From: Isoetes taiwanensis
Taxonomy: Eukaryota > Streptophyta > Lycopodiopsida > Isoetales > Isoetaceae
NCBI GenBank assembly: GCA_021234155.1
Contig: JAJEKV010000019.1
Span: 19,281,359-19,345,358, forward strand
Direction of reading: 5' to 3'
Length of the DNA stretch: 64,000 nt
Shown: piece after piece, positions 12,923 to 33,273 of the stretch
How the letters are laid out: every line of letters begins with the position of its first letter
How positions within the stretch are numbered: the first letter of the stretch is position 1
Notes under the pieces: generated by a model
What the model was told of the DNA's origin: nothing
The model's input: the letters and a program-made list of their open reading frames with translations, nothing else
The model's database searches: none
Made by a program: the position numbers and the translations under genes

Positions 12923-13708
12923 TAGTCACAAACCTGCTGCTTGGATGCTGTGCCTTTGCTGTCAGCACCCTTGAAGCCGCTGCTGTTACTGTTATTCTTC
13001 TTTTTCTTAGCCTTTTCATTCCCTTTTGCATAGGATTTAGGCTCAGAATGACCTGCAAAGAAAGCATTGTGCTCGTCTTTGATAATCCCAGCATCCTTCC
13101 TCATCATGATCTCCTCCTTGACGGAAGTGATTGCACGATTGAGATCCATGTCGGCAATTTGCATGAGATTGCTGCGCAAGGCATGGAAAGAATTGGGTAA
13201 GGATCTAAGAAAGAAAAATAATTGCAATGAAGGAGAGATCTTATTCTCTTCTCCAGAGGCTTCAATCTGCCGAAAGATGTTCTTCATGCAGTCTGCGAAT
13301 TTATCAAGACTCTCGGTCTCTTCCCAGCGCATATTCACCACTTCAGCATACATACAAATGCCCAATTTGTGTATGGGTCTTCTTTTCATGCTCTTGGATG
13401 AGAGCATTCCATAAATCATGGCTGTTCTCCTTCTGAACCTCATCAAGAAGAGATTCAGCAACAGAAAGCCCAATCGTAGCCATAGCCTTATCATCCCGGC
13501 GCTGCCAAGCATCAAGAACAGATTTATTCTTGCCATCTGCTGCAAGCTCGGGTGCTAGTTCTTGGCCACTAACAATTCCCCAAACTCCTTCAGCCTTAAG
13601 AATGAGAGTCATTCTTCTCTTCCATTGCTGGAAACCTGTGCCATCGAAGATTTGAATCACACGACCGCCAGGGAAGGTAATCTGGTTGTAGCTTGCATCC
13701 TTCTCCAT
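12880..13708 (-). pseudogene. Copia gag
   Basis: The first frame (13708-13343) begins 39 bases after the primer site and has the gag N-terminal pattern (FDGTGFQQWKRRMTLILK, then DAWQRRDDKAMATIGLSV, then ALIQEHEKK), the UBN2/gag-polypeptide type. It shifts frame near 13350 to ESLDKFADCMKNIFRQ, LRSLPNSFHALRSNLM and a Lys/Asn-rich linker. A zinc knuckle follows, CDYCKKGNHTAADL, in which the fourth metal ligand (Cys) is missing. Gag would package the element RNA; this copy is broken by the frameshift. Confidence 0.85.
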
Positions 13709-13746
13709 TGCTGTGTTGATCTTGAATCAATCTCAGCACACCTAGT

Positions 13747-13758
13747 GCTCTGATACCA
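13747..13758 (-). other. primer binding site (initiator Met tRNA type)
   Basis: Minus strand reads TGGTATCAGAGC, the common Copia primer site complementary to the 3' end of initiator Met tRNA, placed between LTR and gag. Confidence 0.9.
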
Positions 13759-13767
13759 TATCAAGGT

Positions 13768-14103
13768 TGCACCAAGAAAGGGAGAGAAGGGGATGCACAC
13801 CAATATCCGAGAGCGCAAGCTCCCAAAACAAAGGCAAAATGGAATTGTATTAAACGTAAGTATGAATACAAGATATAAAAAAGGGCAGTAAATAATAACT
13901 GCTCCCGTTACCAACCACACATAATTATGCCGTAACTAATTAAGGCAAGTCGGTGCCGTAGCTAATTAAGGCAAGTGGGTGGGCTGGTGTAGGTGCTGAT
14001 GAAGTCTTTGATTCAAAGACATAGTCGCGACCTCCTCGCGGCCGAAGTGCTATCAGTGTCTTTCATCGACAAGATGGTGATCTCGATATCATATATCTCG
14101 ACA
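13768..14103 (-). repeat. Copia 5' LTR
   Basis: About 336 bp. Minus strand starts TGTCGAGATATATG exactly where homology to a PIF/Harbinger transposase stops (14104) and ends ...CTTGGTGCA about 9 bp before the primer site. A duplicated 26-bp motif (CCTTAATTAG[C/T]TACGGCA) lies at about 13924-13976 and a TATA-like TTTTTTATATC near 13875. The 3' boundary is approximate. Confidence 0.6.
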
Positions 14104-14148
14104 CCTTCTTCAATTTCTTGTTCATGTCTTGTTATATCTGGCAATTCT
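14104..14148 (-). mobile_element. PIF/Harbinger transposase fragment
   Basis: CTTCTTCAATTTCTTGTTCATGTCT followed, after a short deletion, by ATATCTGGCAATTCT matches the transposase 3' coding end at 31620-31677 in the same orientation. It is a remnant of a third Harbinger copy or a rearranged piece, wedged between the Copia LTR and the left end of Harbinger copy 1. Confidence 0.6.
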
Positions 14149-14327
14149 AGAGAGAGGTAAAGAGAGAGAGAGAGGCCTCGAACACAGTGAGCTGAGAGAT
14201 CATGAGAGATGATTTGAGAGACAAAATGGAAGGAAAGATTATGAGAGAGATGCGAGAGTCCACTTAGTGGACTCTCGCATTTAGAGATAATTCGCCCCTA
14301 ACTGCTGTTAGGGGCATTTCCATTAAT

Positions 14328-14456
14328 CGCATCGATCCGAGCCATCGGATCGCCATTCTGGGGAGGGATGAGCCACTATATAAGGCTCTTTCCCCTTCAG
14401 CAGCGGTTATCGGCGTCTTCTCACAGCAGCTTCCTTCCTTCTCCGAGCTTCCCTCC
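14328..14456 (+). repeat. split direct repeat A1 (left end)
   Basis: Starts CGCATCGATCCGAGCC immediately after the shared AAT (14325-14327). It contains a perfect 8-bp inverted repeat CGATCCGA/TCGGATCG at 14332-14351, a TATA box and a C/T-rich downstream segment. It matches 18930-19058 with about three mismatches and then diverges abruptly. Confidence 0.88.
14377..14384 (+). promoter_or_regulatory. TATA box in repeat A1
   Basis: CACTATATAAGGCTC is a strong plant-type TATA context about 50 bp inside the element's left end. The copy at 18979-18986 in A2 is identical. A promoter that starts element RNA here is an inference. Confidence 0.55.
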
Positions 14457-17400
14457 CTTTCCAATCCTTTCTTGCCCTTTTGCTGATCTGATCCCTTTCC
14501 TGTGACTAACGATAATTTCTTACTAAACTTTTCCATACGTTTGTAGCAAACATCTGCTCAATTCCTCTTCTTCTTTTGTGATTTCCATTGCTGTCTTCTA
14601 GGAGCTCATGCTCATCTACATCGGATTGCGCAAACTACAGGAGCATCGAGTACCTCTGTTGTTGGATTTAGATTCATACATTATTTGATGGGGTAATGCT
14701 ATTGTTGGATTCGTGCATGCTTTCCGCATGTTTTTCTGTTCTAACTTCTTATTACATGGTAATTTGCGGAAGCATCCGATAACTTGTTGTGAGATTTCGT
14801 TTCCCTCGATGATACGTTATTGGATTTGTGTTACACATTGTCATCGGCCAGGTTCATCATTGCATCATGGTTTCATCATTGCGGCAGTTCAATGCTCTCG
14901 GTGTCACAAAAGTTTTCCTTCACCCAATTCTTTTGTCTTGTGCGATCGCGATAACCCCATCTTGCGGTGAGTATTTTTGTTTGTTTCATTCGCTTGATCT
15001 GCAGCCCACAATCACCAGTTTTCTTCATATTCGCCATCGAATCAGATGAATCGAGCCAGATCTGGCTCTGTATTCCTGAGGTAGGCCGTTGCCCATCGCT
15101 TATCTTCCTCTAATCTCTGATCTGCTTTGCTTTTTCGATGGGCTCCAAATTTGCACAATTCTGCTCTTGTCATTTTACTCAGTCGCCTCCTGCTTGGATC
15201 TCCTTCCATGGCGTTCCAACGGTTTTTATTTTTGCGGATCTCGTGGTACCCGGGTTCGTTTTACGCTATTCCTTGTCTCTTATTCACACCAGACTAATCT
15301 TCTACTCTCCCCCTTGGGCTCCAGACCTTGCATGCATTCTCATCCCCTACCCTGGAATCAGAGCAGCAGATCCGCCAATCTTTTTCTATGCTTCTGTTCG
15401 CTGGGCTTCTCCGATTTTTGTTTTTTTTTTTTAGGGGCGAGCGACGGAAGGAGCGGTCGGATTCTGGGTTCGGCATGCAGCTTCTGCTGCCGGCAGGGAG
15501 CTCCCTGGGCTGCGCAAATCCGCCATGCAACATTCGGTTGGTTTTTGCTCTCCTCTCTTTCTGCACCTGCCTCATCAGAGCTGCTTTCGGTGAAAGAAAA
15601 CCTCTTCTAATAGTTCTCCATGCCCTGTTTTGCTTATAACATAACCCTGTCTGCTTCTGACGTAAAGGCTTTTCCTTTTTTGTGAGCTCCAAACCTTTAC
15701 ACTGGTATAGGCACATTTTCCTTAGGTTCCTATTTATCTTATGCCCTTGTATTCATTATCATGGCTTTTTAATAGCCTTTGATATTTCTAATGGTTATAT
15801 AGGTTATCCTATGCCCCTTTACATATACACTTGGAACAGCATTAAGAGTAACATTTACATTATATTTTCCATCATTTAGGTGGACCCTCCCCATGCTTGC
15901 TCCATATCGGTATGTCATCTCCGTTGTTTACGATATTGTTACCTGACTTGTGTATGCCATCTTAGTTATTTTGGATATTGCTGCATGGCTTGTGTTCCAC
16001 GTATTCTATATGTTGGGGGTTTTTGCTTGGGGTCATGTCGATGATTGTTGTTCACATATTTACTATGGTAAGTCCCTTTGTAGCATTCTTTTACGATTAT
16101 TGAGAGCTGACGATTTTCTTGTCTTCGAATGGGATCAATGGAAACATTTTTTGCATCGTATGGTGCCTACTCCATTTTGTCTTGATACATGCATCTTTTC
16201 TATTTGTTAAATGATTTTTATTCTCTTCGAATTGGTTCTTTATTGGCTATCCTAGGAATATGCTATATCCTATATGTTTGGTGTTTTTTCTAACTTTCTG
16301 CTAGTTGACACATTCAATTGACGAACTTGCCTCATGGCTCTACGTTGATGGACCGATATCTCTGCCGCCATTTCATCATGTGGTGGCCCACTCAATTTTA
16401 TCTAGATACATGAATGTGGGTATTTCTCATTTTCTATAGAGGGATTGGTTAGTTGTCATGAATTGCCGCTTCTAGACTGTGTCGAGATATGTCCCCAATA
16501 GAAACAATGTAGAGACAATGTAGCGACCATGTCTCAGTCATTATTTTTTGTAGGAGTCTCTTGTTTTCCTCCCTTTCTCATTGACTTCGGGTATTTCTAA
16601 CCTACCCACCACCATAACTTTGGTTAACATTGCATTTGCTTACCCCTTCATTTTTGTTAAGCCTAAGGCTATTGTCATGGCTTCCCATCTTGTTTTGGTT
16701 CAGGGATCCTTTTTCAATCCATTATTTATATTTGCATTTAATTTTGTGTTTGGTATATCCTCATTCACATTTTTGCTTATTGTACCCCTTCTATTCTATT
16801 AGCTGTTTATCATTTACACATATTCATTTGACCCAAGATATTTAGGGTTTGCAATTGGGACTTGATTTTCTGCTTAGTCTGCTTGCTACGTTATCCGACT
16901 CATTTGTTCCTACTCAATGGAATTTGTTCCTGCTGATAATTTTTTGGGATTTTGCGGCCTCATTTATTGTCGGACATTCATCTGTTCTAACCCGTAGTTT
17001 GCCTACAATTGTTATTTAAATTTATCATGCCAGGACATTTTTTAGCACATCATTTTCGCGATTTTGGTAACAGAGATTTTGTTGGGATGGGTGTTTCAAT
17101 TTCCAGGGTTTGTATCTGTATTGGATTCTGTCAGCACACATCTTTAATTTGAGGCTCGTCTTGTTAATGATTGCAAAATCTTGTTCTAAGCTTGTTTGAG
17201 TATCTTCGACGGAAGGCTATGCTCTTTGGGCTTGGGCACTATTTTCGTTGTTTCTGCTAAGTCCCATGTTACCTATGCAATTATATACCATTTCCTTAGC
17301 TAACAATTTATTCTAGACCATTGTTTAAGGGGATTTGTCATGCAATTGGATTAGGTGCCAATTTTTCCTTATTCCATTTGTCTCCAGAACACTTTATATG

Positions 17401-18558
17401 CGGGGATTTTTACGTTCTTAGGGAACCTTGGAGCTGCGCATGAGGTAATTTATTGTTTGTTAATTTCATTTGGGACAGGGACTTTTTTGCGCTCCTTTTT
17501 GCTAAAGTTGTTTGGGATATGTTTAGTAGCCATTACAATACGTTGTAGGTTCATTATGTCATTTGAGTGATTTCTTCGTATTGTTCTTCCGTCGTTTCGA
17601 GTTTTTGATGCTATTGACATGGGTTGTATGTGGCAACTTTGAGCTGTATCTTTGTGGACATGTATGGTGGACCTTATGGACATTGAGCTTTGAGTATCAG
17701 GGGGGAGCGTGTCTTCTTTTCTTTTGATTAGAATCTATTCTATTCTATTCTATTGGGCTTTCTCACATGTTGTATTGCATACTTCTTTTGCATATTTTCT
17801 ATTGGTTTACGATCATTGGCTCTATCTCAAATTTGTTTCTAACTTTTCCATGTATGCATGTATTGGGTTGTCATTTTTTGTGTTGAGATTTGCAAGTGGA
17901 TTTGTCTAGTATCCGTTTACATTTGGTGCGAGTTCTTATTCTGTTTTGCTACCCTTTGGTTGGACATTTTGCTTCATACTTGGTTTTCATGCATTTCCTT
18001 TGTTGTCCTGGTACTCTTGACCTCTTGATATGTTATGTTATGGATTTGTCATCTCTCGATATGCCCATTTATTTGTCCAGAGTAAGTCTTTGTTAATGTT
18101 TATCATGCGTTGCCTTATTTGTACCTACATATGGCATGCTATCATTTTCCACATGACAAGATGTAGTTGTTGTGTTCCCATTACCCATTTCATCACTTGG
18201 TTATTGGTCTCACCTCGTTATTCCTCCCCGACCCTTGGCCCTCTCAACCTCCATCTCCTCGATATCCTTGGCCGTAACTTTTACCTTTGACTTGGTTTTC
18301 ATACTTGACCTCCTCCCTTCAAGCTTCACCATCTTACCATTCTATCGACTTAGGTCTCTTTTCCCTATATCTGCGATGTCTTTTGGCTAGGAGCAGCTCA
18401 CGCGATCTTGCATGATGTGCTCGTTCTCCGTAGTTGCTTGATTTCCTTTCTGCCCTCTTGTCTAGCGCTTGCCTCTTACCATTTCACTGCTGGACTTCGG
18501 ACATTGGTATACTTTGTTTTATTCTCTGGCCTAGGGCACGTTTTTTAGTCGGTATCTC
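14457..18558 (+). other. T-rich non-coding body of the tyrosine-recombinase element
   Basis: The strand is strongly T-rich and reads like plant intron or UTR sequence. All open frames are short and hydrophobic by composition (Phe, Leu, Cys, Tyr). I looked for an RT palm motif, RNase H, a methyltransferase and a gag zinc knuckle in the plus frames and saw none. A (CTATT)n run lies at 17735-17752. Confidence 0.6.
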
Positions 18559-18870
18559 TTGCAAATGGAATTAAAGGTGACATTGGCATTGTTTTTCCTG
18601 GTGAGAATTGCATTTAGGATATTGTTGGTCTCTTATCTATGCACTTATTCACACCTAGTACATAGTTATCCTACGGCTATAGGCTTGGACCCATCTCTTT
18701 ATGGTACGCATTCTGCTCGTCGCGGCGGGGTTTTGGCAGCTGCGGCTCGCGGGGTTCCACATGATGCAGCTCGTGCTCACGGTCGCTGGCGTTCCTCTTC
18801 TTCTCACTCTCGCTACGTGCTTCGTGACCCGTCTCAACATTTGGAGGTTTCGCGGCGGTTGGGCTTATAG
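18559..18870 (+). CDS. tyrosine recombinase, C-terminal catalytic part only
   Basis: The last 65 or so residues (18670-18870) are a clear DIRS/Crypton-type tyrosine recombinase end: YGTHSARRGG supplies the H-x-x-R pair, ARAHGRWRS the next catalytic His/Trp position, and SRYVLRDP the Tyr nucleophile. Such enzymes cut and rejoin DNA through a 3'-phosphotyrosine and insert circular intermediates. The first catalytic Arg and N-terminal core-binding domain are absent. The first 37 or so residues of the frame are hydrophobic and unlike the family, so the true start is probably elsewhere or lost, or upstream exons exist. The catalytic part is much richer in CpG than the T-rich body. It ends 20 bp before repeat B1, the usual place for this gene. 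Confidence 0.75.
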   Translation: MQMELKVTLALFFLVRIAFRILLVSYLCTYSHLVHSYPTAIGLDPSLYGTHSARRGGVLAAAARGVPHDAARAHGRWRSSSSHSRYVLRDPSQHLEVSRRLGL

Positions 18871-18890
18871 TTAGGAAGTTCTCTGGTAGT

Positions 18891-18929
18891 CGGCCGGTTT
18901 TGTGTCTAGTGCCAGTCCCTTCCCAGAAT
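18891..18929 (+). repeat. split direct repeat B1 (internal)
   Basis: Starts CGGCCGGTTTTGTGTC and ends CCTTCCCAGAAT, abutting A2 with no spacer. It matches 19893-19931 at 37 of 39 bases. The B1-A2 join is what a circularised element would have at its junction. Confidence 0.88.
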
Positions 18930-19058
18930 CGCATCGATCCGAGCCATCGGATCGCCATTCTGGGGAGGGACGAGCCACTATATAAGGCTCTTTCCCCTTC
19001 AGCACCGGTTATCGGCGTCTTCTCACAGCAGCTTCCTTCCTTCTCCGAGCTTCCCCCC
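18930..19058 (+). repeat. split direct repeat A2 (internal), with TATA box
   Basis: Copy of A1, including the CGATCCGA/TCGGATCG palindrome and the TATA box (18979-18986). Across the B1-A2 join, TCCCTTCCCAGAAT (18916-18929) and ATTCTGGGGAGGGA (18957-18970) form a larger imperfect inverted repeat around that palindrome. Confidence 0.88.
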
Positions 19059-19144
19059 CTTCCCGCCCTGCTCAGGGGGACACGTCTGTTTCATGTTGTT
19101 CACTTTGCATTTACTATAATTCATTTTTCATATGTTGTTTTTAT

Positions 19145-19323
19145 TTCCACCTTGAGGGTGATGCTATTTATTTCCACCTTGAGGGTGATGCTTTTTTTTT
19201 TTTCACCTTGAGGGTGATGCTATTTTTTCCACCTTGAGGGTGATGCTATTTATTTCCACCTTGAGGGTGACGCATACTTAATTGCCACCCGCTGGGTGAT
19301 GCTTTTCCACCTTCTGGGTGCTG
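19145..19323 (+). repeat. about 26-bp tandem repeat between A2 and B2
   Basis: Seven units of the type TTTCCACCTTGAGGGTGATGC, each holding a small inverted repeat CACC-TTGA-GGGTG. The last two units are more diverged (CACCCGCTGGGTG and CACCTTCTGGGTG). The array lies only in the short A2-B2 arm. Confidence 0.85.
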
Positions 19324-19892
19324 ATTTTTATGTTCTAATTTGCTCTTCTTTGCAGGGGTTGATTGTGCGGCTTGCCTTGTCCATGCCATGCATGTTAGTT
19401 CTTTCTAACCATTTACGGGTATTTTTAGGGTTCTTTTGAGTTGCTGCAGGTTTTTTGCGGTCGTTTGGGGGTCCTGCTTTTCGACGACCGCCATCGACCA
19501 CGTCTCCGCCGTCTCTCGGCTTCCGCCATCTTACGGGGTCTTGCTAGATTTGTGTTATGACACATCATCTTTTCGGTTCTCCGGGCAACACATTCGGGGC
19601 TTACGCCCGTCCTCACGGGATCCTGCTATATTTGGGTTCGCCGTCCCTCCATCTTCTTCGGTTTTCCAGGCATCACATTCAAGGTTGTTGGCGACCATTT
19701 CTCATTAGGGTTTTCCTCGAAAACCCGAAAGGGTGGGGTTTTTTATCCCGGTGAGAAGTTGTCGCCATTGCCCTTCTATGTTGCCTGTGCACATTTCTTT
19801 TTATGGGGTAGTCCGATATTGTTCCTATGGTCGGCTACCCCTCTCTATTCTTCAAACCATTGTATACTGCTGCTGTGATGAATGACAAGCCT

Positions 19893-19931
19893 CGGCCGGT
19901 TTTGTTTCTAGTGCAAGTCCCTTCCCAGAAT
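19893..19931 (+). repeat. split direct repeat B2 (right end)
   Basis: Ends CCTTCCCAGAAT. The next base starts Harbinger sequence (AAAATATTCGTTAAGG) that in copy 2 follows the sequence ending ATTAAT. The trinucleotide AAT is therefore common to both junctions. Confidence 0.88.
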
Positions 19932-20274
19932 AAAATATTCGTTAAGGATAACGTCCCGAAAAATTTATGGAGCCAATTTTTGGAGGCCGGAATTTTTGAC
20001 CTTAATTTCGGCCTTTGTTCAAGGTGGGCGGGCTCCAAGAATCGAAACTCCAAAATTGTTCCCTCTTAGCATCGCATTCAGCACCAATTGTGAATCCGGT
20101 AAGCATTTCTTGCATTTCTTTAGATCAATTTGTGAAATGCTTTGTTAATAGCTACATTCTTAGCAACTGCCTACTTGATAAATCAGGCACAAATTGTCTC
20201 AAGAACATGACGAAGGCAACCAGATCGTCTTTGCCGAATGCTAAGAAGCCTTTTGTTCCCCTAGGACCGAGAAA

Positions 20275-21381
20275 TTGGCTCCAAGAAGAACTAAGAGGAT
20301 GATTGGATCAGTTTCCCAATCTGTGGCCATTGAGATAAATTCCGAGCCTGCAAGGGCTTCCAATTGCAATCTAAGGGGAAGGAAGAGGGATCAGCCAGAA
20401 GATGGATTACCTAAGGTTCAATCTGAACCCCTCCCCAATGATTTAGCCTTGGTTGTGCACGAAAGCAATTCTGTTGCTCTTAACCGGGCCAAGAAAAGGA
20501 AAACTCCTGTAGATTGGTCGGACAATGCAATCTCCACCATGCTTGCTTTGATGAAGGAGTACAAGGTGCATAATAATGGAAGTATCAATCTTTCTTCAAG
20601 CCAATGGAGAGAGATTATGGTGAAATTGCAACCCACAGTTCATGGCCTTGAAGACTTGAGACAGTTAAGAAACAAGTGGGATAAATTGCAAATAGAATTC
20701 AGGGATGAGAAAAAAGCATCCGAAAGAACAGACTCTGAGCCATCTAGTTGGCCATGGTTTGTAGCTATAGAAGATCTAAAACAAATGAAAGGGACATTCC
20801 AGGTGCAGGGGATGATGGGGAATTTGGGGCCGAGGCATTTGAGAATGCTGGTATGTTCCCAAACACATTGATGCCTTCTATGAGACAATTGGAACAAATG
20901 CATCTTTTGTGGAACAAGAATTCATAAGCATTGCAGATGATAACCCTGTCAGCCCTGTTGCAAATGAAGGAAATGGTAACAAAGATAATTCAAGTGCTCA
21001 GGAGAAAATTCCAGCAAAGATACTCCAAGTACTTTCAATCCTTCTAACACCAGTCCTCGGTCTGCTGCATGCAATCAGCCTGGGGTTAGCGGTAAGCCAA
21101 CAACAAAAAAGAGATCTCTGGTTCACATTGATGAAAAAGTTGCAGCTGGGATATCGAACATGGCAAATAGCTTTGGAGAGAATGAAAAAAGGAAGCTTGA
21201 TTTCATAAAAGAAGAATCTGTTAAAAAACATGAATTGATCAGGGTGTCGGTGTCCATGAGATCAGCTAATACTTTGAAGATTGCTCAATCAATGGCTACA
21301 ATGACAGAAAACATATGCGAAATGACAAAGGATACTCTACTGGAGATTGCTAAACTTGCTACATCGAAGCAAACAAATTAA
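20275..21381 (+). pseudogene. Harbinger copy 1 ORF1, Myb/SANT-like protein
   Basis: Collinear with copy 2 ORF1. The N-terminal basic region (MAPRRTKRMIG) and the Myb/SANT-like domain (VDWSDNAISTMLALMKEYKV, then SSSQWREIMVKLQPT and RQLRNKWDKLQIEF) are intact, with the Trp that is a stop in copy 2. Relative to copy 2 it has deletions of about 10, 7 and 1 bp near 20787, 20865 and 21005; together they break the frame between 20787 and 21005 and then restore it. The last part (MANSFGENEKRKLDF...) is again in frame. In this superfamily ORF1 binds DNA and helps bring the transposase to the element ends. Confidence 0.8.
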
Positions 21382-21706
21382 TATCAATTTCAGAGGTATT
21401 CTTCTTACTTTTGTCCTGTACTGTCGTTTTCAATTTTTTTGTCTTTCTGTTATTTTTTTGAGCTTCTGCAAGATAGTTAGAACAGTATGTTCTGTTTAAG
21501 TTCAGCTTCAAGTTTGTAAATGATTAGAACAACTTTCATGTGCTATGGGGATCTAATATCGATTTTAAATCTAGTATGATATAATATTCGTGATCCTGAC
21601 TACATAAATAGTATAATTTCATAAAGGTTTCATACGACGTCCCTTAAAATTCCATAATGCATGTCTCTATTCCTGCGCACTCCAATTTATTGTAAGCTGC
21701 TCGAAG

Positions 21707-21907
21707 GTGGCAAGGCGCAAGGTTCTGGTCTGGCACCATTTCCCTGTTTACTCTTCTTCTAGTGAGGATTCTGCTATGGCCGTGGCAGCTAGTTCGACTT
21801 CAAGCAGCCTGACAGTCGAATCGGCCGAGATTGTGGAGCTCCAGCACAGGAGCTTCCATGCTAGTGTGAGCCAAAAATGTCAACAAATGGAACAACATTT
21901 ACATTGA
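21707..21907 (+). pseudogene. Harbinger-internal small ORF, copy 1 (truncated)
   Basis: Same frame and start as 30254-30562 in copy 2 for about 56 residues (HFPVYSSSSEDSAMAVAASS and VELQHRSFHASVSQ), then cut by the deletion of about 1.07 kb. Ser/Ala-rich; I do not recognise the family. Most differences between the copies keep the frame, but that alone does not prove it is coding. Confidence 0.35.
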
Positions 21908-21945
21908 GTACAGATGTAAGTAATTTCCTGAAATGAATGAAAGAA

Positions 21946-22681
21946 TCAAACTAAGTTTTTTCCATCTCTTTTTTGGAAGATGACATGTCTTATCAAGTCT
22001 CCTTCCTTCTTCAATTTCTCGTTCATGTCATCAGTTTCATAATAGTTTTTATCTAGCAATTCTACTTCTAAGGGCAACATTTCCAATTCTAAGTCCTCCA
22101 TAATGCAGAAATTCCACAAAACACATGCTGCATGAATTATCTTGGCTGCCCTGCCTACATGAATAGGCAAAGCCTTGAGGATCCTGAACTTCTCTTTTAC
22201 TATGCCAAATCCATTTTCTACACAAACTCTGCCCTTGCAAATCCTCTTGTTGAACCTGCCAGAAGCCCCTGTGCCATCTGGAAATACCTTCATCAAAAAC
22301 CTTCTGCTTGGATATGCTGAATCCCCTAAAAGCATTGGTGGAATAGTAACTGTCACATATGCATCCAGTATTTCACCTCCTGTTAATCTTTTTTCCAGTC
22401 ATTTGGACAGTAGATTCCCGCAAAATCTGCTTTGATGCTAGCCTATTATATAATAGACTCTTCTTGAACTAATTGGAATCATGCACAGATCCTGTTCTAC
22501 CAACACACACATTGATAAAAATTCTAGAGTGTGTTACTACACCTTGCATGAGGCAGGACTGCCTCTTGTGTCTGCTATAATAATCATCCCCTTTGTCTTT
22601 CCTCCAAGGCTTCCTGTATAAGGAAATGTGAGAACCATCAACAACACCAAAAATACTAAGTAAACCTGTGGCATCTTCAAA
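21946..22681 (-). pseudogene. Harbinger copy 1 transposase, C-terminal part
   Basis: A DDE_Tnp_4-type transposase segment separated from its N-terminus (27327-28061) by the Helitron. The first catalytic Asp is present (VVDGSH, codon 22639-22637), as is the third acidic residue (CVENGFGIVKEKFRIL). Frame damage lies between 22356 and 22450. A transposase of this kind cuts at the element ends with two metal ions. The gene cannot make a full protein because of the insertion. Confidence 0.85.
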
Positions 22682-23448
22682 TCTTTATACTACTATATTA
22701 TAAAATTATCTTGTAAGTATGTATGTCATGTATCAAACATGGACGGCTCAGATTGTGCCAAGTGGCATGCCAAGTGCTTGTTTTAATGCGAAAAGGTGCC
22801 ATAATCACTCTTGAAAAGGTGTGTCGACCACATGGAGAAATTTTTGAAAGACAACAATTTTTTGTTTGGTTTTTTTCCATTCTAGCTATGCCCCCTCTGA
22901 AGCCTTCGTTCTTTCTATTCCGGCGTCCTGCCCTGTCCAATAATAGGAATTTCCAGAAATTCATCATAAAATTTACATATAGACGAGTATGTTTTCATTC
23001 AAGTCTTTCTGGAGTATGGAGCCATGGGAGTAAACCCATTTCAGCATACTTTATATACAGTAATTGTGCATTGTTCCGGCGATGGAGAATTAAGCAGCCG
23101 AAATAAGGAAGCCCAAATGGGCTCTATGAGGAATTCCCTGTGGCGGTTGGAAGGTCACCAAGACGATGCCATTGTGCAATTCGCGGCTCCGCTGTTTTTG
23201 GTTTTTTGGAATATGCCTGAAGATATCCTGGTTCTTTCACTCAAAAGGAAATTGCTTAGTTAGCGTTCTGCTCGAAGGTGGGTGGGCAAAGGAACTGTCT
23301 GCGATTTCTTTATATAGGCACTTTTTGAATAGAAAAATGGTCGTGCATTCTTGTGGATTTCTCTGTACTTGGGATATTGAGGTTAGCCAATTTTTTAGTC
23401 ATACAGAGAGTGGGTCAGAGCACAAGATCATTGTAGAGGAACAAACAA

Positions 23449-24800
23449 ATGAAAAGCTTGGCATCAGCACGGCAAGCTCATGCTAAGCTTCTTAAGGCCC
23501 ACGTTAAGCCCAACATCATTTCATGGAACAATCTTATGAACATGTATGCCAAGTATGGTTACTTAAAGGCTGCATGTGAAATATTTGATAGGATGTTGGC
23601 ACATAACGTGTTTAGTTGGACTATACTAATTACAGGATATGTACAAGATGGAGGAGATACTGAGGCACTTCAATGTTTTTTGCAAATGCAACAGGAAGAT
23701 GTTCAGCCAGACAAGGTAACCTTTGTTAGCTGTGTAAGTGCATGTGTTATGCTTCAAGATTTAGCAAATGAAAAGCTGGTGCATTCCAACATCCTGAAGT
23801 GCCAATGTGGTTCATATATTCCTTTGGTGAATAATTTAATTAACATGTATTTTAGATGTGGAAACATACAAGATGCTTGCCATATATTCGACGTGATACA
23901 TGTGCGTGACGTTGTGGCTTGGAGCGCCATGATTGCAGGATATACCCATCATGGACAAGGTAGAGAAGCACTCAAACTTCCAGAACATATACAACTTGAA
24001 AACATTAAGATGAACAACTTTGTATTATCTGGGCTTCTGATTGCATGTTGTGCCGTTGCATCTCTTTCATATGGTAAATGGTTACATTGTCACGTTTTAC
24101 AAAGTGGCTCTGAAGCTGATTTTATTTTGTCAAATGGTCTGGTTGACATGTATACAAAATGTGGAAGCATCTATTATTCTTGCATTGTCTTTGACAAGTT
24201 GTCTATACAAGATGTTGTATCATGGACTGCAATAATTACTGGATTTGATTATTCTTTGGATGACAAAGAGGGATTTAAACTTTTTCAACAAATGCAACAT
24301 GTTGGCGTGGAACCAAATGAAATAACATTTTAAGGCATCATGTGTGCATGTGCCAATGAGGCCGCTCTAGGACAAGGTAAATTTGTTCATACCATGACCT
24401 TAAAGCCAAAATAGTTTTGGACCATTATGTAGGTAATGCTCTCATCGATATGTATGTAGAGTGTCAAAGCATGCGTGACGCCTGCAAAATCTTTGACCGA
24501 TTGTCTGGGCGTGATGTTGTGTCATGGAGTGCAATGATCGCAGGGTCTATACAGTTTGGTCAGAAGAAAGATGTGCTTAAGATATTTAAACACATGGATC
24601 CGGAGAATGTGGAGCCAAGTATAGTAACTTACATAATTGCAATGAATGTATGTGCAGTTTTAGGAGACTTTGAAATGGGAAAAAACCTTCATGCTAAATT
24701 TATTGAAAGTGGTCAAGAATTGGATCTGTTCCTTGGAAATAGCCTTATTGATATGTATGCTAAGTGTGGGAGCCTGGAGAGTGCCCTCCAAGAAAGCTGA
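23449..24800 (+). pseudogene. pentatricopeptide repeat (PLS-type) gene fragment in Helitron
   Basis: About 430 codons of PPR motifs of the plant PLS type, with recurrent NNLINMY..CG....A..IFD, DVVAWSAMIAGYTHHGQG and signature MYAKCGSLESA strings. PPR proteins bind organellar RNA base-specifically, with each motif reading one base. The frame has a stop at 24331 (after EPNEITF) and a frameshift near 24400-24415, then continues (DHYVGNALIDMYVECQSM...) to 24800. No targeting peptide or C-terminal E/DYW domain is seen, so both gene ends are missing. It lies between the Helitron termini and is best explained as a captured fragment. Confidence 0.9.
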
Positions 24801-24877
24801 AAAAATATTGGGTAGCTAAAAAAAATATTGAAAAAATTGGGTTTTGATCATTTCGATAACTTGAGCAGACGAATTAC

Positions 24878-25374
24878 CTTGCATCCCAGAGAACAGAAGC
24901 TAAATCTATCAAGCAGGCTCTTGGAACACATCTCGCAGGTGTTTGTAACTCATTTTGCGAACCGAAATTGAGGCCTTTCGTTAAGAAAAACGACCTTGGC
25001 GCTGTTGATTATGTATGTTTGAACTCCGATAAGGTCCAAATACTTGTGAATTTCTGAAACTCTGATAACATCATGGTAAGAAGACCACCTAGTCTGTACA
25101 AAACCAAGCAAGAGGATCAGACTTGAGCTTTGAAAGCTTGAAAGGCAAGAATTGATCGAATTGGGTTTTAATTTACCTGCACAATGCGATGGTTTCTGTG
25201 ATCATAAGTGCAGGAAGAACAGAGCACTCCAGAGGTACAATCTAAGCAAAACATGTTGCATTCGCTTTTTTGGAGGTCGTTATGAAGTGGGCAAGGCCCA
25301 AAAAAGCCTGTTAATAACAGCAGCACAAGCCATGGCAGCCCTAGCTGTGATTCTTCTCCAAGCGTAGTAATCAT
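24878..25374 (-). pseudogene. PLATZ transcription factor, first exons captured by Helitron
   Basis: Exon 1 (25374-25177) encodes LGLPWLVLLL...FFGPCPLH and the zinc-binding core SECNMFCLDC...[14 protein letters not shown], ending at a GT donor. Exon 2 (25093-24878) follows an AG acceptor and encodes [35 protein letters not shown] and, after an in-frame TGA, VTNTCEMCSKSLLDRFSFC, ending at AAG/GT. Exon order, splice sites and the C/H pattern match the plant-specific PLATZ family, which binds A/T-rich DNA. The TGA replaces the usual Gly before VTNTC. The C-terminal exon is absent because PPR sequence begins at about 24800. Unspliced introns show DNA-level capture, not retrocopying. Confidence 0.9.
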
Positions 25375-27299
25375 AGTCGCAACCTGAAATTTGAAATGTG
25401 CATTTGAATCAGAACCAGAAACCCAAAGACTTTCCATGACTTTCAAGCAAAATCTCCTGTCCAATTCAAGCACCAAATTGCCAAACCAACACAAATTCTT
25501 CAAAAAATGCAAAATTCCGCCAATCAGATGCAAAATTCCGCGTACCCAATGGGTAGGAAGTTTCAGGCTTTCAAATTCCATGCAAATTGGTGCAATGAGG
25601 GAAGAGCTGGGTGCAAATTGAGGCATAAATATGGAATTAAGGCAAGGAGCCAAATGTTGGTTGAAGAATTAGGCTGCTATTCTAGCAGAAGTAGTAACTT
25701 CGACGCCGTCAGTTCTTCGAGCATGTTAAGCTGGCTCTGTCTCTGTACTTTGGCGGCCCTTTTTTCCTTTTCAAAGCCGCATTTCCGACAGGCCAAGTAG
25801 TGGGTTGAATTGGTTCTCTTACTTCCACCTGCTTGTAGAATGCATCTGTCTTTCTCTGTGTTAATTACATGCCTGAGCCAGTCTGAAAAAAGTCCGAATG
25901 TGAAAAAAGAAAAGGGGAGCTCTGTTTGCTGATGGAATATTGGATTGCTACAATTTGCTTATAGATCTATTTCATAGAGCATCTTGCCCATTTGCAAATT
26001 TGTTTCAAAGCAGATGCCTGCACATGCTATTTCAAGTTGCAATTAAAATAGTTTAGACAGTGGGAAAGCACCATGCCAGGACATCTTGAAAATTTTGAGA
26101 CACTTGGTATTCCTTTTTGGTTTTCAAATGTGCAATGTCTCATGTTCTCTCTTTGATTTTATTGTAGGTCCTCTTGGCCAAGAATGCGCAAATGTTGTTG
26201 GAGGAGCGTCTTGCGGCCGCGAAATAACAAACCTAATCGACCATGGTTGATCATTACACGTAAACACCTAGCTATATGCACTAATGATATTGGTTGATAT
26301 TCTCATTTTTCTTGAATAACAGCACTTAGTTGGTGTTGATTTTGGAAACATCACCAGTATTTCTTAGTCGTGTGTTTCAAATGTGAGTAGATGTTAATTG
26401 CTATGTTGTGTATCCTTTCTCTATATCTACAATTGCCTTTTTTGCAGCTATTGCACTCTTCATGACGTAACATAGAAGGAATTTGAAACGAAGCTGAATC
26501 ACTTGCTGGGCATTAAGGCCTACGAAAGCCCATTGCACTATACGCATTCCACATGCTTTGTAAAAATACTATCTATCTATCTAATGTTCGCATGCCTTCA
26601 TTGGTTAAAGTCTGCCATCAGAGGTTCTTCTGTTGATGAAATCGTTTCAGAAAATTGGCATGTCACAAATTCTTTTACTTTTCTACATATAAATGCAGCA
26701 CTGGTCATGCCTTCATTATCTTGCTTTTAATTTTTTCTCTTCTACTTCAGTATTGTGGAGGTTGTTCCTTTAAAAGAAAAGCAAGCCTTTTTTTAAGGTG
26801 CATGCTAAGTTAGATGAGTTTTGTCTTCTATAAAAGACAAAGGATGCAAGAAATAGCTACCAATCGCTTCTACTATTCAAACATGTTTCCAGTTATTGAT
26901 TGTCGATTACATTATTGATTGTCCATTACAGGTTCCCATGCCCTACTTGATTTGCGATCATTTTGCAAGTAAAACCAGTAAGTACCTACATATTTGTCTT
27001 CTACACATTTGTCTTCCTAATGCTTGCACCCCCTAAGTCTATGTTGATTTGATAAGATTGAATCAATGGAACTAGATAGATGCTATTTTCTATTTGTATC
27101 TAATCATTGTGTTGTATGGAATGTTTTGGATTATGAGTTCCAATGTTTAAGCAATGCATTACAACCTAATAGTTCCATGTTTAAAGAAATTTAACGTAAA
27201 CCAACCTTTAAACCTAAAAATCTAAATAACTCATTCCGAGTATTGTTCAAGTAAACAATCACATGGAATAATCATAAAAGATGAACAATCACATGTAAA
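25375..27299. other. Helitron interior right of the PLATZ fragment
   Basis: No motif is recognised; only short frames occur. The first few hundred bases may be PLATZ upstream sequence carried along with the capture. A/T-rich with no Rep/helicase motif. Confidence 0.5.
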
Positions 27300-27326
27300 G
27301 CTCACCAACGGTGGGCAATTTACTAG
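27300..27326 (+). other. Helitron 3' terminal hairpin and CTAG end
   Basis: GCTCACC and GGTGGGC pair around an AAC loop, followed by AATTTACTAG. The hairpin is the replication stop signal in the rolling-circle model for Helitrons. Confidence 0.8.
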
Positions 27327-28061
27327 TTCCTTCATGATATCAAGGAGTCTCTGACCCGAGGGTAAGACATTGAATTTTTTGTATAGCATGGTCTTGGATG
27401 CTAAAATTAAAGTCACTTTCTTGGTGTATTTTTTGACTGTGGCTTTTCCAACATAAAACCTTTGACCAACATGCAATGGCATCTCACCATGAGCAAGAAA
27501 ATAGAGTACCATAGCTACTGCTTTCCTAGGATCTACAGGGGGCCTGACCTTCTGGCCTGGTCTGATCAGGTATGGCACAATAAGGCCAACCAGTTTTTCA
27601 AATGACCTTCTCTTCATTTTGTAAGACTGATGCCACACATATCATCTTCGAATGAGGGAAGACAATTCCAAGCATGATTGTCAATGTTATCCCATTGAGT
27701 GATCTGTCTGGGACAAACCCAGAATCTTCTCGGCGGTCTTCTTAATCGAGATGTTGTAGAGCCAAGAGTAAGATGGAAGATGCACATGGAAAACTAATGT
27801 TGTCTTCTTGAAAATCGCCATAGGATCCTCGAGCTCGTTTTCTTGGATGAGATCCAAGTAAAATTCCTGCATTGCTAAACCTAGCACAATAGCCCTACGA
27901 AGCATTGCAATCATACCTAAAATGACCGGATCCATGCTTGAATGACGCTGTCGGTGATTATTTTCTGCCTCAATGGTGTAGGGAATGGATTTTTTACAGA
28001 AATCAGCTTGAAATGGGACGCAGGAAGTCTCTATGGGCAAACTCGCAATATCCCATATCAT
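27327..28061 (-). pseudogene. Harbinger copy 1 transposase, N-terminal part
   Basis: The first frame (28061-27687) starts near MDPVILGMIAMLRRAIVLGL. After a shift the second frame (27638-27327) has MKRRSFEKLVGLIVPYLIRP and EMPLHVGQRFYVGKATVKKY, the helix-turn-helix region before the DDE core. The Helitron cuts the gene after LLDIMKEL; codons beyond that on this side are Helitron sequence. Confidence 0.85.
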
Positions 28062-28797
28062 TCATTTTGAAGATTGAATGAAGAAAGAATTATCCCATAT
28101 GGGATGGCCAGCCGGAATCAAATTGGAGGGAAAAAATCCGGCGGGGAGGAAGAAAACTACCCGAAACGGCCGCTGTTAAGGCTCGAGAGAAGGTCATCTC
28201 TGATCTTCTCTTGAGCTATACTGTATATTTTTTGTCTCTCGCCGTATACGACGAGAGACAAAAAAATTTCAAGCATGTGGCCGACCTAAGTGAGACAGAG
28301 AGGGAAGGAGGGAGAGAGCGAGAGAGAAGCCTCGGCCACATGTGAGCCGAGAGATCATGAGAGATGATTTGAGAGACAAAATGGGAGGAGAGATTATGAG
28401 AGGTGAACTCTCGCATTTAGAGATAATTCGCCCCTAACTGCTGTTAGGGGCGTTTCCATTAATAAAATGTCCGTTAAGGATAACATCCCAAAAAATTTAT
28501 GGAGTCAATTTTTGGAGGCCAGAATTTTCGACTGGCCTCTGTTCAAGGTGGGCGGCCTCCAAGAATCGAAGCTCCAATATTCTTCCCTCCTAGCATCGCA
28601 CTCAGTGCCAATTGTGAATCCGGTAAGCATTTCTTGCATTTCTTTAGATCCATTTGTGAAATGCTTTGTTAATAGCTACATTCTTGGCAACTGCCTGCTT
28701 GATAAATCAGGCACAAATTGTCTCAAGAACATGACGAAGACAATCAAATCGTCTTTGCGAATTCTAAGAAGCCGTTTGTTCCCCTAGGACCGCGAAA

Positions 28798-29922
28798 TTG
28801 GCTCCAAGAAGAACTAAGAGGATGATTGGATCAATTTCCCAATCTGTGGCCATTGAGATAAATTCCGAGCTTGCAAGGGCTTCCAATTGCAATCTAAGGG
28901 GAAGGAAGAGGGATCAGCCAGAAGATGGATTACCTGAGGTTGAATCTGAACCCCTCCCCAATGATTTAGCCTTGGTTGTGCACGAAAGCAATTCTGTTGC
29001 TCTTAACTGGGCCAAGAAAAGGAAAACTCCTGTAGATTGGTCGGACAATGCAATCTCCACCATGCTTGCTTTGATGAAGGAGTACAAGGTGCATAATAAT
29101 GGAAGTATCAATCTTTCTTCAAGCCAATAGAAAGAGATTATGGTGAAATTGCAACCCACAGTTCATGGCCTTGAAGACTTGAGACAGTTAAGAAACAAGT
29201 GGGATAAATTACAAATAGAATTCAGGGATGAGAAAGAAGCATCCGAAAGAATAGGCTTTGAGACATCTAGTTGGCCATGGTTTGAAGCTATGGAAGATCT
29301 AAAACATGGTGTGACAAATGAAAGGGACATTCCAGGTGCAGGGGATGATGGGGAATTTGGGGCCGAGGCATTTGAGGATGCTGGTATGTTCCCAAACATA
29401 TTCATATCTGATGCCTTCTATGAGAGAATTGGAACAAATGCATCTTTTGTGGAAGAAGAATTCATAAACATTGCAGATGATAACCCTGTCAGCCCTGTTG
29501 CAAATGAAGGAAATGATAGCAAAGATAATTCAAGTGCTCAGGAGAAAAATTCCAGCAAAGATACTCCAAGTACTTTCAATCCTTCTGATACCAGTCCTCG
29601 GTCTGCTGCATGCAATCAGCCTGGGGTTAGTGGTAAGCCAACAACAAAAAAGAGATCTCAGGTTCACATTGATGAAGAAATTGCAGCTGGGATATCGAAC
29701 ATGGCAAATAGCTTTGGAGAGAATGAAAAAAGGAAGCTTGATTTCATTAAGAAAGAATCTGTTAAAAAACATGAATTGATCAGGGAGTTGGAGTCCATGA
29801 GATCAGCTAATACTTTGAAGATCGCTCAATCAATGGCTACAATGACAGAAAGCATATGCCAAATGACAAAGGATACTCTACTGGGGTTTGCTAAACTTGC
29901 TGCATCGAAGCAGACAAATTAA
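28798..29922 (+). pseudogene. Harbinger copy 2 ORF1, Myb/SANT-like, one stop
   Basis: 375 codons in one frame with a single internal stop: TAG at 29128-29130 where copy 1 has TGG (Trp of the SSSQW motif). Domains: a basic N-terminus, the Myb/SANT-like DNA-binding fold (about residues 75-155, with VDWSDNAISTMLALMKEY and QLRNKWDKLQIEF), an acidic Ser/Asn-rich middle and a Lys/Glu-rich helical C-terminus (ENEKRKLDFIKKESVKKHEL). In Harbingers ORF1 cooperates with the transposase in DNA binding and nuclear import. The nonsense codon lies inside the DNA-binding fold, so this copy is probably inactive unless read through. An alternative start at 29140 would lose the domain. Confidence 0.85.
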
Positions 29923-30253
29923 TATCAATTTCACAGGTATTCTTCTTACTTTTGTCCCCTGTACTGTCGCTTTCAATTTTTTTTTTTCTTTCTGTTATTT
30001 TTTTGAGCTTCTGCAAAGTAGTTAGAACAGTATGTTCTAATTAAGTTCAGTTTCAAGTTTGTAAATGATTGGAACTTAACTTTCATGTGCTATGGGGATC
30101 TAATATTGAATTTAAATCTAGAATGATATAACATTCCTGATCCTGACTACATAAATTGTATAATTTCATAAAGGTTTTGTACGACGTCGCTTAAAATTCC
30201 ATAATGCATGTCTCGATTCCTGCGCACTCCAATTTATTGTAAGCTGCTCGAAG

Positions 30254-30562
30254 ATGGCAAGGCACACAGTTCTGGTCCGGCGCCATTTTCCTGTTTACTC
30301 TTCTTCTAGTGAGGATTCTGCTATGGCCGTGGCAGCTAGTTCGGCTTCAACCAGCCTGACCATCGAATCGGTCGAGATTGTGGAGCTCCAGCACAGGAGC
30401 TTCCATGCTAGTGTGAGCCAAAGAGTTATTCTTGGCTACATGTCCATGGAAGAAGTTTTTGTGGAGGCTGAATTGCTTGCATGGACTGAGCAAGCTCCTT
30501 TCCGGCAGAGAGCACATGTAGAGCTCATCAATATCAAACATCATGGAAGGTGGTGTCTTTGA
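30254..30562 (+). CDS. Harbinger copy 2 small ORF of unknown function
   Basis: 102 codons between ORF1 and the transposase 3' end. The first 56 residues are shared with copy 1. Ser/Ala-rich at the start (HFPVYSSSSEDSAM), then VELQHRSFHASVSQ and a mixed C-terminus ending HHGRWCL. No family is recognised. It may be a third element gene, UTR sequence or a captured host piece. Confidence 0.35.
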   Translation: MARHTVLVRRHFPVYSSSSEDSAMAVAASSASTSLTIESVEIVELQHRSFHASVSQRVILGYMSMEEVFVEAELLAWTEQAPFRQRAHVELINIKHHGRWCL

Positions 30563-31560
30563 GAGGTCCAAATCCCATCTGTAGCTTGTGAAAACTGCCC
30601 TGAATAGCCTTTTCATGTGAAGAAACCTTTTCCTTGTGCCTACTCTGAAACTCAAACGTTTTTTTTTTTTTTTTGTTTGTTAAAACTTTTTGTAGCAATG
30701 TATGATATGGAACCCGCCACAGGCCTTTTGTGTACTCAGACCTTTTTGTGTACTCAGACCATGAAGAAATGGTATTTTTGTAAACCTTGACATATGAATA
30801 CATTTTATTTTATCTGAAATGGATAATCCTGACTTGAGTTGTCTTTCATTTTAACTAAAACGTAGTTTAGGTTCTTATAGTTTTCTGAATACTATTCTTA
30901 CAGATTAAGAAGACGAGAAAGATGAAGGTTATGATGACATGTATTGTTTAGATCTTAATTTTTAGCATTTCAGGGACCACAGGCATATCTGTGTGATTCT
31001 AGTCAACAAGTTTGTACTCTTCTATTGGAAATGAGTTCATGTAACACATTTGATATTAATAAAGAATAATCTGTTTATTATCTTCTGCACTTCTCTACCC
31101 TGTAATGCTAATAATCTGTGATGTCACTGTAATGTTATTACTGTGAGAGAAAAAAATGTGAACTTTTGTAGTTTTTCATTGACATAATTAACACTTTCAT
31201 TGTTTAGTTATTCATTCATGGTTTAGTTCATATGACCTCAAAACCTTGGTACTTTAAACTTTTGGTATGTTCTGCAATCTTAAATCTAAACTGATGTAGT
31301 TGTTCATTGACAGAATTAACATATTCATTGTTTAGTTATTCATTCATGGTTCAGTTCATGTAACTTCAATAAATTGGTACTTAAAACTTCTGCTCTGTTT
31401 TGCAATCTTAAATTTGAACTGCATTACGTAAAATACATCACTGAACTGAACATAAAGCTGGACCAGAAATTGGGATCTCGAAAATCTATTAATGTCAACA
31501 AATGGAATAACATTTACATTGAGTACAGATCTAAGTAATTCCCTAAAATGAATGAAAGAA
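30563..31560. other. Harbinger copy 2 internal non-coding region
   Basis: A/T-rich, no motif. Most of it (to about 31492) is the part deleted in copy 1. It contains a near-duplicate of about 130 bp: ATTCATTGTTTAGTTATTCATTCATGG occurs near 31197 and again near 31322. Confidence 0.5.
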
Positions 31561-32734
31561 TCAAACTAAGTTTTTTTCATCTCTATTTTGGAAGATGACA
31601 TGTCTTATCAAGTCTCCTTCCTTCTTCAATTTCTTGTTCATGTCTTCAGTTTCATAATAGTTTATATCTGGTAATTCTGCTTCTAAGGGCAACATTTCCA
31701 ATTCTAAGTCCTCCATAATGCAGAAATTCCAGAAAACACATGCTGCATGAATTATCTTGGTTGCCTTGCTAACATGAATAGGCAAAGCCTTGAGGATCCT
31801 GAACTTCTCTTTTACTATGCCAAATCCATTCTCTATACAAATTCTGCCCTTGCAAATCCTCTTGTTGAACCTGCCAGAAGCCCCTGTGCCATTTGGAAAT
31901 ACCTTCAACAAAAACCTTCTGCTTGGACATGCTGAATCCCCTAAAAGCATTGGTGAAATAGTAACTGTCACATCTGCATCCAGTATTTCACCTCTTCTAT
32001 TAATCTTTTTTTCCAGTCATTTGGACAGTAGGTTCCTGCAAAATCTGCTTTGATGCTAGCCTCTTGTACAATAGACTCTTCTTGAACTGATTGGAATCAT
32101 GCACAGATCCTGTTCTACTAACACACACATTGATAAAAATTCTAGAGTGTGTTACTACACCTTGCATGAGGCAGGAATGCCTCTTGTGTCTGCTGTAGTA
32201 ATCATCTCCTTTGTCTTTCCTCCAAGGCTTCCTGTACAAGAAAATGTGAGAACCATTAACAGCACCAAAAATACTAGGCAAACCTGTGGCATCTTCAAAT
32301 TCCTTCATGATATCAAGGAGTCTCTGACCCGAGGGTAAGGCAATGAATTTTTTGTATAGCATGGTCTTGGATGCTAAAACTAAAGTTACTTTCTTGGTGT
32401 ATTTTTGGACTGTGGCTTTTCCAACATAAAACCTTTGACCAACATGCAATGGCATCTCACCATGAGCAAGAAAATAGAGTACCATAGCTACTTCTTTCCT
32501 AGGATCTACAGGGGGCTTGACCTTCTGGCCTGGTCTGATCAGGTATGACACAATAAGGCCAACCAGTTTTTCAAATGACATTCTCTTCATTCTGTAAAAC
32601 TGATGCCACATATCATCTTCGAATGAGGGAAGGCAATTCCAAGCATGATTGTCAATGTTATCCCATTGAGTGGTCTGTCTGGGACAAACCCAGAATCTTC
32701 TCGGCGGTCTTCTTAATCGAGATGCTGCAGCCAA
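31561..32734 (-). pseudogene. Harbinger copy 2 transposase (DDE_Tnp_4)
   Basis: The first frame (32734-32000) carries the N-terminal HTH region (FEKLVGLIVSYLIRP, LHVGQRFYVGKATVQKY) and the DDE core: the first catalytic position reads GAVNGSH, with Asn (codon 32257-32255) where copy 1 has Asp, and the second Asp is in TGSVHDSNQF. The second frame (31971-31561) has the third acidic residue in CIENGFGIVKEKFRIL. The frame shift lies near a T-run at 32003-32011. Loss of the first metal-binding Asp and the frameshift each predict no activity. It reads towards ORF1. Confidence 0.9.
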
Positions 32735-33273
32735 GAGTAAGATGGAAGATGCACATGGAAAACTAGTGTTGTCTTCTTGAAAATCGTCTTCCTCACTATT
32801 GCCATAGGATCCTCGAGCTCGTTTTCTTGGATGAGATCCAAGCGAAATTTCTGCATTGCTAAAACTAGCACAATAGCCAAAGAAGCATTGGAATCATACC
32901 TAAAATGACCGGATCCATGCTTGAATGACGCTGTCGGCGATGATTTTCTGCCTCAATAGTGTAGGGAATGGATTTTTACAGAAATCAGCTTGAAATGGGA
33001 CGCGGGAAGTCTGTGTGGGCGAACTTGAAATATCCCATATCATTCATTTTGAAGATTGAATGAAGAAAGAATTATCCCATATGGGATGGCCAGCCGGAAT
33101 CAAATTGGAGGGAAAAAATCCGGTAGGAAGGAAGAAAACTGCCCGAAACAGCCGCTGTTAAGGCTCGAGAGAAGCTCACCTCTGATCTTCTCTCGAGCTA
33201 TACTGTATAATTTTTGTCTCTTGCCGTATACAACGAGAGACAAAGACATTTCAAGCATGTGGCCGACCTAAGA

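Follow-up and report, generated by a model that had tools for sequence, protein, structure and literature searches.

A probable non-autonomous DIRS-order element with split direct repeats in the genome of the vascular plant Isoetes taiwanensis

Results

Structure of the element

The window analyzed in this study is a stretch of 64,000 nucleotides (64 kb) from the genome of the vascular plant Isoetes taiwanensis (contig JAJEKV010000019.1, positions 19,281,359 to 19,345,358 of the forward strand). Window positions 14328-19931 hold an element with the order A1-body-B1A2-tail-B2, in which repeat A1 sets the left boundary and repeat B2 sets the right boundary (Table 1). B1 and B2 agree at 37 of 39 bases, the value in Table 1 being reached if the last base of an AAT triplet is counted, and B1 abuts A2 at 18929/18930 with zero bases between them. 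When the element was searched against the window (E 1e-3), no further copies of A or B came up. An earlier sequence-only reading of this DNA had described A1, a recombinase end, the joined B1A2 and B2; the layout is confirmed, with A at 135 bp (about 129 in that reading) and B at 39-40 bp. The repeats are direct and split, and are not inverted terminal repeats of the Dirs1-like type. No terminal inverted repeat was found; the only match between the two ends begins 27 bases inside A1.

Table 1 Features of the element and of its empty target copy (window positions)
Feature	Position	Strand	Remarks
Repeat A1, left end	14328..14462	+	131/135 identical to A2; target AAT at 14325-14327 before it; TATATAA at 14377
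Body, T-rich, without detected domain, common to only some relatives	14463..18674	+	
3′ end of tyrosine recombinase gene (H-x-x-R, W, Y) and stop	18675..18870	+	18676-18867: residues 95% identical to residues 268-331 of the L053 recombinase
Repeat B1, AAT at its end	18890..18929	+	38/40 identical to B2
Inverted repeat spanning the B/A joint (18915-18932 and 18954-18971), proposed recombinase site	18915..18971		16/18 complementary
Repeat A2	18930..19064	+	TATATAA at 18979
Tail, A2 to B2, with seven CACC...GGGTG hairpin units (19148-19320)	19065..19891	+	Tail common to relatives
Repeat B2, right end, AAT at 19929-19931	19892..19931	+	38/40 identical to B1
Empty target copy in the tandem Harbinger-like repeat: its one AAT	28461..28463		Flank matches

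The body is T-rich, as the earlier reading had it (T 40% and A 19%, vs T 29% and A 30% elsewhere in the window). In agreement with that reading, which saw neither gag nor reverse transcriptase (RT), no Pfam domain was detected at E up to 1 in any of the six frames of 14330-18890, a range that includes the short recombinase end, and no RT match was found in the window copy. The excess of T over A on the forward strand ends at the element borders. It is present in the coding relatives as well (A 14% and T 38% in the relative L043), and the proteins of such T-rich relatives have high contents of F, L, S and P.

The arms of the inverted repeat at the B/A joint are 18 nt long, and their degree of complementarity was reached by 0 of 200 shuffles. 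This inverted repeat is whole only where B meets A, which is the case at the internal joint or in a circle. One of the seven hairpin units in the tail has its stem U-G changed to C-G, and the RNA fold of the array has a z-score of -5.0, with equally stable shuffles in 0 of 200; the array is possibly a cis signal. An Rfam search gave nothing useful. The sole AATAAA in 14001-20500 (at 19929-19934) consists of the AAT of B2 and the target AAA at the right joint, a single case that proves nothing.

The insertion site

The element lies in a Harbinger-like region that is present in two neighboring copies, copy 1 (14154-28290) with the element and copy 2 (28308-33272) without it. The left flank, 14154-14327, matches 28308-28463, and the right flank, 19929-21875, matches 28461-30422 at 93%. 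These flank matches in the element-free copy establish the element as an insertion. The filled site reads CCATTAAT, the element and then AAAAT, compared with CCATTAATAAAAT for the empty site; the empty site has AAT once, and in the filled site it is found at either end of the element. No duplication longer than the AAT triplet is seen at this insertion, for which one empty site was compared. The internal B1A2 joint has the AAT too, as would be the case for a crossover triplet. Within the repeat pairs, 6 of 174 bases of A and B are mismatched, a corrected divergence of 3.5%, and the two target copies are 7.0% diverged, also corrected, so the insertion is younger than the duplication of its target.

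The locus and the element have themselves been duplicated nearby on the same contig. This second copy of the window's own insertion, L038 (G000 C1007:19354800-19364700), was compared with window 13629-19931, and the first 12 bases of its right flank agree with those of the window. L038 is the more decayed of the two, with A1 and A2 identical at 101 of 120 bases vs 118 of 120 in the window copy.

A second insertion, Helitron-like, occupies window 22682-27326 between an A and a T of Harbinger copy 1. It starts with TC, ends with a CACC-AAC-GGTG hairpin and CTAG, and has its empty site near 32300 in Harbinger copy 2; a pentatricopeptide repeat (PPR) frame lies within it at 23437-24333. Elsewhere in the window, an aspartyl protease is nearest to that of Selaginella moellendorffii (54%), followed by Diphasiastrum (47%), which points to a lycophyte as the probable host.

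The recombinase end

The frame that stops at 18870 holds the motif H-x2-R-x22-W-x8-Y, with the spacing of Escherichia coli XerD. No other match to the motif occurs in any of the six frames of the 64 kb, and when the 500 bp upstream of B1 were shuffled 1000 times, the three forward frames produced it in 0 cases. The frame is collinear and gap-free with XerD and with four plasmid integrases. Among the 60 matches listed of the 108 in a tblastn search of plasmids (E 0.04 to 10), 46 are annotated as recombinases or integrases, 14 are unannotated and none is annotated as anything else. A profile made from XerD and the four plasmid proteins gave E 7.5e-8 for the window frame and 4.4 for the next of 1235 frames, the former value being optimistic since four of the five proteins had been chosen for matching this same frame. 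The 95% identity of the last 64 residues to the open L053 recombinase frame, described below, seems to us better proof of the recombinase end than the plasmid profile. The plasmid match continuing upstream of 18675 was discounted as probably a chance match, as the block common to the family begins at about 18675 and the L053 protein differs before it.

Other searches were of little help. Queries with 61 or 111 residues of the recombinase end gave nothing useful in Pfam, PDB, PHROGs or NCBIfam, nor did this end against a protein database so large that a 64-residue query has little chance, nor against viral and bacterial contigs. Phage records gave one poor match, and a degenerate DNA pattern gave two, both by chance. 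The single-sequence fold of the recombinase end was poor (a predicted local distance difference test score, pLDDT, of 65) and was left unused.

Copies in the genome

We searched the Isoetes taiwanensis genome (1,658,258,908 bases in 1110 contigs) with A, as the earlier reading had suggested, and obtained many copies: 1449 first-look candidates, 40 of which were scored. All 40, the window's two included, have 95-100% identity. The copies are spread over many multi-megabase contigs, which makes contamination unlikely. By context, 30 loci divide into 14 with B-A-tail, one with B-A-body, seven with neither an upstream B nor a tail, and eight with A-tail and no upstream B. Six of the seven have a match to the body, and the seventh, L027, is the A1 of L051.

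The A1-type and A2-type loci among the 30 were fetched as 18 stretches of about 10 kb, leaving out the eight A-tail loci, L035 and the window's two. The complete order A1...recombinase end-B1A2-tail-B2 is found in 12 of the 18 (L038, L040, L041, L043, L045, L047, L050, L051, L052, L053, L054 and L055), in elements 3.7 to 7.6 kb long whose bodies differ. The complete elements are not all independent insertions, since L038 duplicates the window's own and L046 and L047 share a left flank. A match to the recombinase end block (window 18675-18889) is present in 17 of the 18 stretches; in 15 of them it is nearly whole, with B and A2 behind it. The left flank is AAT in 11 of the 15 A copies that have no upstream B (L008 and L009, among the 15, represent the duplicated insertion), and the right end is AAT in 10 of the 12 complete elements. 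In four of 13 complete elements A1 equals A2 at all 120 compared bases, so the family moved recently.

Three of the eight A-tail copies (L022, L033 and L034) have a B2 within the stretch. As a group, the A-tail copies look like products of A1-A2 recombination, comparable to solo long terminal repeats (LTRs); an A-tail-B unit that moves separately is conceivable too. In L055, bases 2575-2667 are a short A piece (to the TATA box) fused directly to B and situated left of the complete element, possibly a miniature A-B unit or a deleted tandem copy. In L042, B alone stands left of A1.

Coding relatives

Two relatives within the same boundaries retain long coding frames. L043, with the same ends, recombinase end, B1A2 and tail as the window element, has a 665-residue RT-RNase H frame, a relative of the kind that the sequence-only reading had proposed to look for. 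Its RT matches RVT_1 at E 4.1e-14, above the cut-off; its RNase H is weak in Pfam (0.023), and in PDB residues 101-470 match Ty3-type RT/RNase H at 2.6e-18. After the RNase H, at L043:3016-3462, the only Pfam family listed is Dam, a weak match (E 0.13, 12.4 bits vs a cut-off of 28.1). The recombinase of L043 is in two pieces. The converse is seen in L053, where the RT is in four pieces and the tyrosine recombinase is an open frame of 331 residues that matches PF00589 at E 3.8e-8, above the Pfam cut-off. Its box-I arginine, H-x-x-R and tyrosine align with those of XerD, and in PDB it has a weak match to Cre and a Cre derivative (E 0.01 to 0.07). Recombinase and RT are on the same strand in both L043 and L053.

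More than 300 of the 331 recombinase residues are present in four of the 18 stretches (L043, L052, L053 and L055), in a single piece only in L053. The three forward frames of L045 and of L052 gave no Pfam match, although remains of RT-RNase H and of the recombinase are detected in L052 by tblastn. Viral contigs searched with the L043 RT gave nothing useful.

Discussion

Assignment of the element

We consider it very probable that the window element belongs, as a non-autonomous member, to a DIRS-order family with split direct repeats, because L043 carries an RT-RNase H, L053 carries a recombinase, and the window copy retains the last 64 residues of that recombinase. The sequence-only reading had arrived at a non-autonomous DIRS-order element, and the relatives with RT-RNase H (L043) or recombinase (L053) in the same layout bear it out.

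Several observations weigh against this assignment. The empty site is demonstrated for one insertion only, and of a circle, a transcript or movement none was observed, as only products are seen. Six of the 18 stretches are incomplete (L039, L042, L044, L046, L048 and L049), and the left triplet is other than AAT in four of 15 cases (TAT, GAT, GAT and ATT). RT remains are confined to three of the 18 (L043, L053 and L052, the last with 185 of the 665 residues), and no examined copy has both the RT-RNase H and the recombinase frames unbroken. Eight of the 30 A copies are A-tail without a body, and in two loci (L023/L042 and L055) A1 is preceded on its left by B or by a short A-B piece. Copies lacking the A-BA-B pattern had been named by the earlier reading as evidence that would overturn it; the outcome is mixed and does not count against that reading, the complete pattern being present in 12 of 18 stretches and the bodiless A-tail copies being explicable by A1-A2 recombination.

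The A-tail copies and the loci with a B left of A1 are also what one might expect if the element were a pair of Crypton-like DNA units in tandem, A1-body-B1 and A2-tail-B2, each inserted separately and without an RNA step. A tandem insertion at AAT would also give the B/A joint; the A-tail copies, three of them with the far-end B, would be the second unit on its own, and a B directly upstream of some A1 copies would fit as well. We nevertheless hold this explanation to be very unlikely. Cryptons lack RT by definition, yet RT-RNase H lies inside the same bounds in L043, L053 and, partly, L052. The full order recurs in 12 of the 18 fetched loci, the strong T excess spans both units, and, apart from A and B, the two units have no sequence in common at E below 0.1.

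An LTR retrotransposon with A as a short LTR, or an element with ordinary ends such as a Harbinger insertion with a 3-bp AAT duplication, would account for the A copies as direct repeats and for the AAT on both sides. The border of the empty site falls at B2 and not at A2, and TGGTATCAGA, the plant copia primer-site word, is absent from the plus strand of the window. The two ends have no terminal inverted repeat, and with a recombinase end present a DDE element is no longer the simplest reading. We regard these explanations as extremely improbable. The chance that the structure is an artefact of assembly or of independent duplications is next to negligible: the region is repeat-rich and the locus itself duplicated, but the same order is found on many other contigs with different bodies and flanks, which contradicts the origin of the repeat pairs in independent assembly duplications that the sequence-only reading had considered, and the pairs differ at six separate sites.

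A proposed cycle

For the DIRS-order element, the following cycle can be proposed. An RNA would start downstream of the TATA box of A1 and run to the right end, and it would be copied by the RT of a partner element. The internal B1A2 would then supply the end pieces that are missing from the RNA, giving a circular DNA with a B/A joint, which is expected at the B2-to-A1 junction as CCCAGAAT followed directly by CGCATCGAT. Completion of the ends from B1A2 is the published model for split direct repeats. The partner's recombinase would bind the inverted repeat at the B/A joint and exchange strands within the AAT at a chromosomal AAT; an exchange confined to the triplet would leave no longer target duplication. 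Mobilization by a partner elsewhere was part of the earlier proposal: coding relatives do exist in the genome, and transposition driven by them is inferred only.

The land-plant record

A 2022 review, in its passage on the order, excludes DIRS from land plants, since all finds of these elements had come from green algae (PMC9033089). The corresponding passage of a 2012 paper states that complete ALOG-bearing elements are not known in streptophytes (PMC3537659), and in a nematode study the reported recombinase matches number 0 for two Arabidopsis species and 182 for Volvox (PMC4157794). Two papers on Isoetes genomes do not use the word DIRS in their main text (PMC8566536, PMC10541799). Tabulated entries do exist: automatic repeat tables list 361 DIRS pieces (45 kb) in Ceratopteris (PMC6890710), three DIRS in Fragaria (PMC10706760) and one in Barthea (PMC11939994), and a plant transposable-element atlas has a few entries (PMC8729191), the passages concerned describing no structure. 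Among the papers listed by our literature search, which did not extend to subscription journals or Repbase, we recognized no account of a DIRS-order element from a vascular plant. The opinion of the sequence-only reading that the order is rarely reported from vascular plants was, if anything, too mild, given that the 2022 review leaves the order out for land plants, although the automatic tables have a few entries.

A vascular-plant family with RT and recombinase frames partly fills this gap in the land-plant record. As many bodies occur on one set of ends, the cis signals of split-direct-repeat elements could be mapped by comparison alone. The family also gives a comparison for the idea that DIRS1-type elements were the source of the plant ALOG DNA-binding domain (PMC3537659). 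A more ambitious proposal would be that the family is a resident, recently active PAT-like vascular-plant lineage, a descendant of the DIRS-order invasion to which the ALOG transcription factors of streptophytes have been traced, in which non-autonomous swarms retain as cis signals the ends, the tail and the final 215 bp of the recombinase gene; we regard this as unlikely.

Comparison with known DIRS-order groups

Comparison with the known groups, as they are characterized in the relevant sections of the cited papers, places the family as follows. The ALOG-bearing DIRS1-type elements (PMC3537659) belong to the same order and differ in their ALOG domain: at E up to 10 the L053 recombinase has no match to the Pfam ALOG family, its only matches being Phage_integrase and two weak SAM-like ones.

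TOC and Kangaroo, green-algal elements of the PAT group that we compared by their descriptions, resemble the family in having split direct repeats and in belonging to the green lineage. Their hosts are green algae, whereas the host here is a vascular plant, and the recombinase of Kangaroo is inverted, whereas that of this family is forward. TOC1, like the window element, is non-autonomous.

The closest likenesses are found in the PAT group, chiefly echinoderm-form Pat1 (PMC4157794), and in Ngaro (PMC4157794, PMC3783388). Pat1 shares the A1-B1A2-B2 repeats, RT and recombinase on one strand, and the BA joint downstream of the recombinase; Ngaro shares the A-pol-B-A-B order with the recombinase before the internal repeats. 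The PAT group has a methyltransferase-like domain after the RNase H and Ngaro, as described, has none, while in the Isoetes family this position yields only the weak Dam match. The repeat order and the forward recombinase thus fit echinoderm-form Pat1 and Ngaro alike, and the family is a known kind of DIRS-order element in an unexpected host.

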